A stretch of DNA of 64,000 nt from Calliopum simillimum (taxonomy: Eukaryota > Arthropoda > Insecta > Diptera > Lauxaniidae). Shown here one piece after another: positions 3,913-6,020 of this stretch. The notes beneath the pieces were generated by a model, which had not been told where the DNA came from, searched no databases, and saw only the letters and a program-made list of their open reading frames with translations. The position numbers and the translations under genes are program-made. Position 1 is the stretch's first letter, and the number at the start of each line of letters is the position of its first letter. The DNA is taken from assembly GCA_951812925.1 (NCBI GenBank), contig OX638371.1, positions 114,103,124-114,167,123 on the forward strand, read 5' to 3'.

Positions 3913-5344
3913 AATCCAGACATTTAATTCTCTAAATTATTCGATAGAAACCAAATCAATCGTTTTTTGTAAAAAATTAATGACCTTTCAATTAAGCTTT
4001 GAGTAAGACACTAGTGCTTCGTATGGCAGCAACATTTTATCCGTCAATAGAGTGTGCCAAAATTATACATTAATTGTTACAAATGTTAATATTTTGGGCC
4101 AAAACTGTTAATTTGCATATCACGGCTTCCACGAAGAACAAGAAAAAAAAGCAAATACTCGGGCATATGTATGTATAAATGTGTTGACAAAATTTACACA
4201 TAAAAGCTGTTAACGCTTGCTAATTGAAAGTGTACATAAGCCAGGGGGGAAAACGCTTGATAGATCAATCAACAAACCAACTGACCGTAAGCTTGACTAT
4301 TCGACAGTTCAGACAAACAGACAGACAGGCATATCAACTGACGACAAACGAATAAACGTACAAAATAATCAACAGTCAACTAAGCATGGAAAATGTAAAA
4401 CTGTCACATTAATAATTCCATTGGAAAAATGCTGCGCAATGCGACATAAAATGTTGCTGCTGATGCTGATGTTGCTGTTGCTACTCTGTTCATGTGTAAG
4501 GGCAAGTTGAGATTGGGTAGTAATGTATAGGGAAGTAAAATGTATTCTGAGACTGAACGGACGCAGCAAAATTGATGCAGACAAAGAATAATTGTACTAT
4601 ATAAGCGTAAGGCACACACATATACTATACATTGTATATTTTATGCAGCCTCACAGACGACCCGCTTTTTAAATTTCAATAAAAATGCATTAAAACTAAT
4701 TACGGCGAGTTTGCCTGCCTGACACTCTGCTGAAAAGCGTAGAAAAGGTCGCAACGGAAATTAGCTATAATGCAGTAAAGTAATGCGGGATGTTGTTACT
4801 TATAAGTTTTTGTTTTGTTAGCAATAATCAAATATTGTAATTAGTTCATGTCAGTTTTTCCTTTTTGCTTAGCAGAAAATTAAATGAAATTATCTTAAAG
4901 AAACATTCTCTGATTTGTAGAGTTTAGAAAACCTTTGCGGTTGTTTTACTTTTTTGCATAGACGTTGCATAGACCTCAGGCTGAATTGGTGATATTCTGT
5001 TATCTGTGGTAGAAACTGTGGGCTAAGGACGAAAATGACTATAGCTTTATAGCACCGTTACACATTGTTGTCATCCCATATAAATGAACGGCATTGCGGC
5101 TTCCGGGAATAACGCCGGAAAATCAGAACAAAGCCAGAAATTTTCCGGCATAAATTTTTTGAAATAAAGCCTTTAATTCCAAAACAAAATAGAAATAACG
5201 GTGGAATTTCGCTTTCTGGCGTTATTTCCGGCAGTCCAAAAAATTAACTAGGAAATAACAGCAGAATTTTTAGAAATAACGCCAGAAAAATTTCCATACA
5301 AAATTCTGGCGTTATTTCCATTTTGTTTTGGAATTAAAGGCTTT

Positions 5345-5709
5345 GAAAATTGATTTTTTAATTGAACTTTTAGTCATATATTTGCAAAGATCGATTTACG
5401 CCCAGGCCAAAAACACAAAAAGTTTTCAAACTTGCAATTTTTCAATTATAATTAATTTAGTGAAATAAATATAATTATGATTACAACAAAATAGTCTGAT
5501 GAGTCTTTGTGGCGAAAGCCGAAACATATGTCACTATAGCCGTGTTTTTAATCTGTTCCTTGATTTGTCATAATTATGTGTTAGAAAATGCATTGATAGA
5601 TTTATATGTAAATCGATCTTTGCAAATATATGACTAAAAGTTCAATTAAACAATCAATTTTCAATATATAAATGTCATTAACTAAGTAACACACTTAAAA
5701 AATTCTTAA
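5345..5709. mobile_element. Short insertion with inverted repeats, 13-bp target duplication and a hammerhead ribozyme
   Basis: AATTAAAGGCTTT occurs at 5332-5344 and 5710-5722, and a related uninterrupted foldback unit suggests the original site, so the 365 bp between are an insertion. Inverted repeats of 56 bp (5344-5399 and 5608-5663, one mismatch) can fold the element into a long hairpin, with a further 10-bp pairing (5471-5480 and 5568-5577). A hammerhead core sits between them. A target duplication of 13 bp points to a retroelement. Penelope-like elements are known to carry hammerheads in their terminal repeats, so a short relative is plausible. No coding sequence is visible. Confidence 0.65.
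5491..5537 (+). ncRNA. Type I hammerhead ribozyme motif
   Basis: All conserved core positions are present in order: CTGATGA at 5496-5502, GAAA at 5521-5524, and T then C (predicted cleavage after C at 5532). Stem I is ATAGT (5491-5495) with ACTAT (5533-5537), five perfect pairs. Stem III is the self-pairing ACATATGT (5524-5531), very short like schistosome-type hammerheads. Stem II is GTCTTT with AAAGCC (5503-5508 and 5515-5520), five pairs and one U-C mismatch, loop GTGGCG. Activity is not shown by sequence alone; the stem II mismatch and tiny stem III may require dimeric folding. Confidence 0.72.
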
Positions 5710-6020
5710 AATTAAAGGCTTTATTTACAAAAATTTATGACTGAAAATTTCTGGCTTTATTTCCAAAAAAATTTCTGGCTTTATATCCTTTCTGTAAACC
5801 ACTTAACTTTTGGAAATAAAGCCATAAATTTTTGGAAAAAATCTCCATACAAAATTTTGGCGTTATTTCCATTTTTTTTTGTAAAACACATAGCTCTTGG
5901 GAAGAAAGCAGAAAAGTTTTTGGCTTTATTTTTAATTCAAAATGGGGAAAAACGTCAGAATTTTGTATGGAGATTTTTCTAGCTTGATTTCTGGCGTTTT
6001 TTCCTATGGTGGGAGCCCGG

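Follow-up and report, generated by a model that had tools for sequence, protein, structure and literature searches.

A hammerhead-bearing, SINE-like repeat of Calliopum simillimum with the insertion anatomy of Penelope-like elements

The 365-bp insertion at 5345-5709 of the window (the whole stretch of 64,000 nt of Calliopum simillimum DNA that was analysed) is a truncated copy of an abundant 543-bp non-coding unit. We regard this unit, with a probability of roughly 0.8, as a non-autonomous, non-coding, SINE-like element of the metazoan retrozyme kind that is moved by the machinery of Penelope-like elements (PLEs); the insertion anatomy was observed directly in the genomic copies, and the enzyme is what we infer from it. 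An earlier note on this DNA had placed a hammerhead ribozyme at the tip of a short foldback retroelement and had pointed to Penelope elements and retrozymes. That connection proved correct, but the short foldback layout did not hold.

The repeat unit and its copies in the genome

The genome searched was the 690-Mb assembly of 334 contigs; among the contigs listed, five exceed 100 Mb and one measures 20 Mb. The window element gave 2063 first-look candidates, 40 of which were scored, on contigs C1-C6, and 97 matched pieces were listed. Copies are thus abundant, but their flanking structure varies and the arms are not conserved: in 37 of the 40 scored, the match starts no earlier than query position 62, so that the left arm seen in the window is missing at that place, and inverted pieces of other lengths are found in other copies. 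The real unit, as defined from head-to-tail tandem copies, is 543-545 bp long; its parts are a tRNA-like head with A and B boxes, the hammerhead, and a 3' terminus that is fixed. Five full units and one partial unit make up L038, the longest array observed. The unit is non-coding, with a G+C content of 33% and a longest stop-free run of 68 aa, and neither a reverse transcriptase nor a GIY-YIG frame was found in it.

The loci analysed below are a non-random sample, as L009-L045 were the best-scoring copies and L054-L113, together with L153, were picked for the cleavage-site sequence; L027 overlaps with L109, and L028 with L100. One further locus, L079, contains an older relative of the unit, about 70% identical, in which the ribozyme core has changed.

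Insertion anatomy

The ends were analysed in 97 loci (L093 and L105 having been excluded beforehand), 95 of which matched at the identity cut. Seventy insertions were complete: 30 consist of an inverted left piece followed by a forward right piece, and the others show no inversion, 23 being reverse-oriented and 17 forward-oriented. Outer 3' ends fell mostly into two zones of the unit, some 45 nt apart, with 71 of 120 at U380-399 (zone A), 32 at U330-369 (zone B), and 17 elsewhere, a count in which the insertion shared by L027 and L109 was entered twice. Among the 29 inverted insertions scored with their flanks, 19 joined an A end to a B end, two had two A ends, none had two B ends, and eight had another end. 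An A-B pairing was therefore found in 19 of the 21 insertions with both ends scorable (binomial p about 1e-4, with zone limits set after the data had been seen). In the 12 A-B pairs with a duplication, the two zones were spaced by 38-60 nt (median 44).

Target duplications of at least 12 bp were present in 12 of the 29 inverted insertions, versus one of 40 others and 0.45% of random pairings, and those of at least 10 bp were 88% A+T. Conserved terminal arms were sought across the copies, and none were seen. The insertions thus display the PLE-type traits, namely two internal start zones, a tail at one end, and a head-to-head inverted 5' flank, and what had been taken for a foldback is an inverted 5' flank as in PLE insertions, not a terminal-inverted-repeat design.

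These traits have close counterparts in the available text of two reports. The protein of the Anolis PLE Poseidon is described as cutting and extending both target strands, with starts at two neighbouring positions within the RNA that enclose a 30-40-bp "tail" (PMC11167929). In Adineta Pen2a, a 31-bp tail is optional at one of the inverted pLTRs, with the inverted pLTR shorter by 37 bp (PMC3846280). The present element shares with both PLEs, as far as these sources describe them, the inverted 5' flank, the 30-40-bp tail at one inverted end, the two internal start sites, the cutting and extension of both strands, the hammerhead, the A+T-rich targets, and an AC-rich stem-loop at the start site (PMC11167929, PMC3846280). 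It differs in that its unit is non-coding and that its zones lie 38-60 nt apart, versus the 30-40 published, the upstream zone being broad (PMC11167929). Its duplications are also longer than the 8-10 bp given for Adineta PLEs (PMC3846280).

The window insertion and its target site

The features of the window insertion are listed in Table 1. In the window sequence, the insertion lies between 13-bp direct copies of AATTAAAGGCTTT; this 13-mer occurs on the given strand at 5332 and 5710 only, and its reverse complement occurs once, at 5166. The proposal that the duplication is the target-site duplication of a retroelement was upheld. The target locus is an imperfect palindrome, in which the uninterrupted stretch 5127-5209 pairs partly with 5301-5344 and partly with 5710-5761, and contains the single reverse 13-mer. 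Judged from its sequence, this stretch serves as an internal image of the empty site and, because it shows the site as it was before insertion, the 13-bp duplication is very probably real. The surroundings (5100-6000 of the window) are dense in imperfect inverted repeats on a GGCGTTATTTCC/GGAAATAAAGCC theme.

The outer ends of the insertion correspond to unit positions 344 (left) and 392 (right), making it one of the 19 A-B pairs, and the last bases of the forward unit copy, whose end falls in zone A (downstream), overlap the target duplication. Unlike other copies, it is without A and B boxes. The inverted repeats described in the earlier note are present as arms of 57 nt, 98% complementary (5343-5399/5608-5664). 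However, the right arm ends 45 nt before the right end of the insertion (5709), and thus the repeats are not both terminal and the whole element does not form one hairpin. Folded in another copy, the tail stretch with the AC-rich stem-loop was of ordinary stability (z-score -0.08).

Table 1 Features of the window insertion and its target locus (window positions).
Feature	Position	Strand	Basis and remarks
Left target-site duplication copy, AATTAAAGGCTTT	5332..5344	.	13-mer count in window
Inverted 5' flank, reverse copy of unit 290-344	5345..5399	-	blastn to unit, and arms; outer end in zone B (upstream)
Forward 5'-truncated unit copy, unit 71 to about 388-392	5391..5709	+	95% identity to unit consensus, 326 bp
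Type I hammerhead motif	5491..5537	+	Sequence, descriptor and shuffles, other copies; predicted cleavage C5532/A5533
AC-rich stem-loop TAAGT-AACAC-ACTTA	5683..5697	+	Sequence; between the two end zones, resembles one described at PLE reverse transcription starts in the available text of PMC11167929
Right target-site duplication copy	5710..5722	.	13-mer count in window
Partner arm of palindromic target locus	5127..5209	.	Inverted repeats I2 and I4, 90% and 91% complementary

The hammerhead motif

The type I hammerhead was borne out by its sequence. Stem I (5491-5495/5533-5537) has five of five pairs and is followed by the core at 5496-5502; stem II (5503-5508/5515-5520) has five of six pairs and is followed by GAA at 5521-5523; stem III (5524-5531) is a self-complementary palindrome, and the cleavage position follows C5532. 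A strict hammerhead descriptor found this motif as its one site in the 64 kb on both strands, and gave two matches in 200 dinucleotide shuffles of the window. The Rfam search that the earlier note had suggested did not confirm it: there was no match at the gathering threshold in the window, and the window copy yielded no hammerhead match even with the cut-off relaxed to E 10. In other copies, Rfam hammerhead scores of 21.5-25.1 bits (E 0.17-0.47) were obtained, which lie under the gathering scores.

The ribozyme stretch is identical over 63 nt in 50 of the 65 extracted rows (two rows being empty), with a perfect stem II, GUCUUU/AAAGAC. The mismatch noted earlier in stem II is thus present in the window copy but atypical, the commonest version being fully paired, and the copies are too alike to show covariation. 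Stability of the 63-nt stretch was ordinary (z-score 0.37).

In the window copy, the predicted active fold is unfavourable (+1.1 versus -8.1 kcal/mol for the best fold), and hence this copy may be a weak or dead ribozyme. For the consensus monomer, the active fold was not favoured either (-4.0 versus -6.7 kcal/mol). The stem III palindrome permits an 8-bp joint stem between two copies, and the dimer fold reached -19.8 versus a best fold of -21.0 kcal/mol. A dimer is the likelier form in which the ribozyme would act and, because stem III is a palindrome, any cleavage would probably take place in dimers. Amphibian hammerheads with a short helix III are described as acting as dimers in the accessible part of the retrozyme literature (PMC7229834).

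Breaks at the predicted cleavage site

A pattern for the cleavage product with a base other than C in front of it matched 64 places, 61 of which were fetched. A place was scored as a break when the upstream sequence was either foreign to the element or a piece of it in inverted orientation. Breaks exactly at the cleavage site were counted in 28 of 59 element places by eye and in 25 of 61 by a script with a fixed score cut. The count by eye started from 30 of 60 places, from which L093 and L105 (an unrelated inverted-repeat transposon) were dropped and L070 was left uncounted, and to which L153 was added; three doubtful cases (L060, L087, and L106) were kept as breaks. The script classified 60 places as 24 breaks, 32 internal, and four "not element", before addition of L153. 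It called L057, L089, and L113, which have inverted A+T-rich neighbours, internal, and L086 not element, and it counted L070, a locus omitted by eye, with a junction some 10 nt upstream of the cleavage site.

A control site shifted by +5, for which all 39 places were fetched, gave five breaks by eye (L134 and two places with indels excluded), six by script, and seven under a first rule. At -5, where 20 of 35 places were read, six breaks were found by eye and seven by script, with L172 representing an internal deletion. Breaks at the cleavage site were thus in 4- to 5.6-fold excess over +5 (p 3e-5 by eye, 4e-4 by script) and in about 2- to 2.7-fold excess over -5 (p 0.0025 by eye, 0.024 by script, scaled to 35), the latter excess being smaller because the -5 control is also rich in breaks. 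L027, chosen without regard to the cleavage site, starts exactly there. Seven loci (L074, L078, L083, L096, L102, L110, and L113), each belonging to the group picked for its cleavage-site sequence, contain a piece that runs only from U215 to U388-392, which is the product expected from a cut monomer. The excess of breaks is read as the likely trace of self-cleavage before reverse transcription.

The two excluded loci, L093 and L105, carry a DNA-transposon-like repeat, with inverted ends by eye, that holds the same 17 bases as the cleavage product (ACTATAGCCGTGTTTTT).

The tRNA-like head

The head of the unit contains an A box (consensus TGGTGCAGTGG) and a B box (GGTTCGACTCC) 43 nt apart, an assignment for which we assumed the generally known Pol III box consensus. 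Within one mismatch, the A box was present in 71 of 75 heads and the B box in 59 of 75. T4 and T5 runs sit between the B box and the hammerhead, and a Pol III transcript might therefore end before the ribozyme. Two folded heads showed ordinary stability (z-scores -0.22 and -1.50).

Such a head would also fit a tRNA-derived SINE of the ordinary, LINE-mobilised kind, with the hammerhead as a roleless passenger, an explanation that we consider unlikely. Both boxes stand at consensus, and no A and B box with a gap of 25-60 nt was met in 20,000 mononucleotide shuffles of the unit. LINE machinery is known to produce target duplications of such length and 5' truncation, so that the 13-17 bp duplications and the truncated copies are also compatible with it. 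However, it does not account for the two paired end zones, the inverted 5' flanks, the head-to-tail arrays, or the enrichment of breaks at the cleavage site, and the copies end at TTCTTAAA with no consistent poly(A) tail. No recognisable relation to a tRNA was seen: ARAGORN found no tRNA in nine loci, and Rfam gave no tRNA match at E 10 in three loci.

The arrays themselves could reflect a tandem satellite spread by recombination, with the hammerhead and the duplications being incidental. Unit similarity is indeed higher inside a locus, with a mean of 0.956 (52 pairs) versus 0.926 across loci (10,976 pairs), but the insertions scattered over contigs C1-C6, which have duplications and fixed end zones, make this origin very improbable. 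The likeness within arrays was also considered as a sign of a circular template, which it does not single out, as local amplification explains it too. Finally, a DNA transposon of the foldback or MITE type, bounded by terminal inverted repeats of 56 bp and near the layout first proposed, would have the 57-nt arms and 13-bp duplication of the window copy in its favour, but the arms vary in length, position, and presence between copies and the right one is not terminal, which leaves this design with hardly any likelihood.

A proposed model for retrozyme movement by PLE machinery

For the preferred reading, a retrozyme-like element moved by a PLE, we propose the following course. The 543-nt unit would be transcribed from tandem arrays, either by Pol III from the tRNA-like head or by read-through, and the hammerhead, probably as a dimer, would cut some transcripts at GUC|ACUAUAG, as the genomic footprints suggest. 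A reverse transcriptase/GIY-YIG nuclease, presumably encoded by a PLE, would bind the RNA and nick an A+T-rich target on both strands, with about 13-17 bp between the nicks. Reverse transcription would begin inside the RNA in the two zones, about U380-399 and U330-363, typically one per target strand, and the two first-strand copies would be joined head to head, yielding the inverted 5' flank and the duplication. Where cut RNA served as the template, the copy would stop at the cleavage site. The window copy may represent one such insertion, its left part of 55 nt stemming from zone B and its right part of about 319 nt from zone A.

A more specific version can be put forward only tentatively, as we hold it to be somewhat less probable than its opposite. 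It describes a retrozyme that has a Pol III-type promoter of its own and is mobilised in trans by PLE machinery, in which each of two start zones on one RNA would serve one target strand, so that the tail appears at one insertion end only, and in which the hammerhead cut would set where one class of germ-line templates begins. A strict rule of one zone per strand is at odds with the Anolis PLE, for which the available text reports that the start site in vitro is the same for both strands (PMC11167929). If true, this version would settle both the identity of the enzyme that moves animal retrozymes and the function of the hammerhead. With about 2000 candidate copies, readable end pairs, and cleavage-site breaks, genome data allow both questions to be tested, and the way in which the two end zones are paired limits the possible modes of template use by the enzyme.

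Several observations count against the preferred reading: no PLE sharing the unit sequence was found among the loci compared, the Rfam scores are below gathering, and the active fold of the consensus monomer is not favoured. In addition, hammerhead mutants of the Anolis PLE are described as having no effect on insertion in vitro, and the hammerhead site was neither the start nor the end of any read, within the accessible part of that report (PMC11167929). The shorter duplications and the 31-bp tail of Adineta PLEs and the unit length, 543 versus 170-400 nt, also speak against it.

Published metazoan non-LTR retrozymes have monomers of 170-400 nt and a type I hammerhead, and insects are listed among the holders of similar repeats, according to the available text of Cervera and de la Pena (2020, PMC7229834). 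As described there, they resemble the present unit in the type I hammerhead, the absence of coding capacity, tandem monomers, low G+C content (here 33%), long duplications, and co-existing PLEs. They differ in size, the 170-400 nt being a range of cases and not a definition, and in lacking the tRNA-like head found here (PMC7229834). The unit is retrozyme-like, and the sequence features tested (a type I hammerhead by sequence and descriptor, head-to-tail non-coding repeats, low G+C, and a target-site duplication) were all found, with the exception of the published size range, against its 543-545 bp. What appears new relative to known retrozymes is, as far as sequence can tell, the 543-nt unit with a SINE-like head. 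In the portions of the sources consulted, the enzyme that moves animal retrozymes was left open, with PLEs named as likely candidates (PMC7229834, PMC7761336); retrozymes may rely on PLEs (PMC8969392), and a promoter has been reported in a plant retrozyme LTR (PMC9695139).

The nearest element in the open literature searched is a schistosome repeat. The Schistosoma SMalpha repeats are likewise SINE-like, and their unit combines a tRNA with a type I hammerhead, but they contain a full tRNA, whereas here the A and B boxes lie in a degenerate head, and PLE-type end pairing is not mentioned for them in the available text (PMC8490949, PMC4918200). Our search, which covered the open literature, turned up no fly element that combines a hammerhead with a tRNA-like head; given this coverage, that is weak evidence of absence.

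PLEs of this genome

At least 51 GIY-YIG matches were obtained in the genome, and at least one of them, on the contig of L157, looks bacterial. A reverse transcriptase and a GIY-YIG domain in one open frame were found at four PLE loci. One PLE (L154:971-3463) has an open frame of 830 aa with both domains, and a hammerhead-core motif in its 3' region. Hammerhead-core motifs were found, by pattern only, in 11 of 16 further PLE 3' flanks, whereas five PLE loci or flanks searched with Rfam (L154, L156, L158, L183, and L190) gave no hammerhead match. A 2014 study reportedly described hammerheads in PLEs.

No sharing of the unit sequence was detected in the five GIY-YIG loci L154-L158 (L157 looking bacterial), and among the 16 further 3' flanks compared, out of at least 51 GIY-YIG matches, only that of L191 matched well. 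The 3' flank of L194 contains a 53-bp match to the unit on the other strand (E 5e-4). In the loci compared, the PLEs of this genome thus differ from the unit in having no sequence match to it.

L191, with its 70% match to the tRNA-like head, was considered as the partner PLE and rejected, because the matching stretch is a separate, abundant repeat, and its 39 other scored places, compared by eye, were not beside a GIY-YIG match among the matches listed. This second repeat (L191:274-441, on the + strand of contig C3 of assembly G000) includes a minisatellite leader as well as a tRNA-like head whose identity to that of the unit is 70%, and gave 1603 first-look candidates, 40 of which were scored at 97-100%. 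On the 67-kb contig C183 of the same assembly, the frames of L157 resemble bacterial regulators by eye, and for this reason the assembly seems to contain bacterial DNA.
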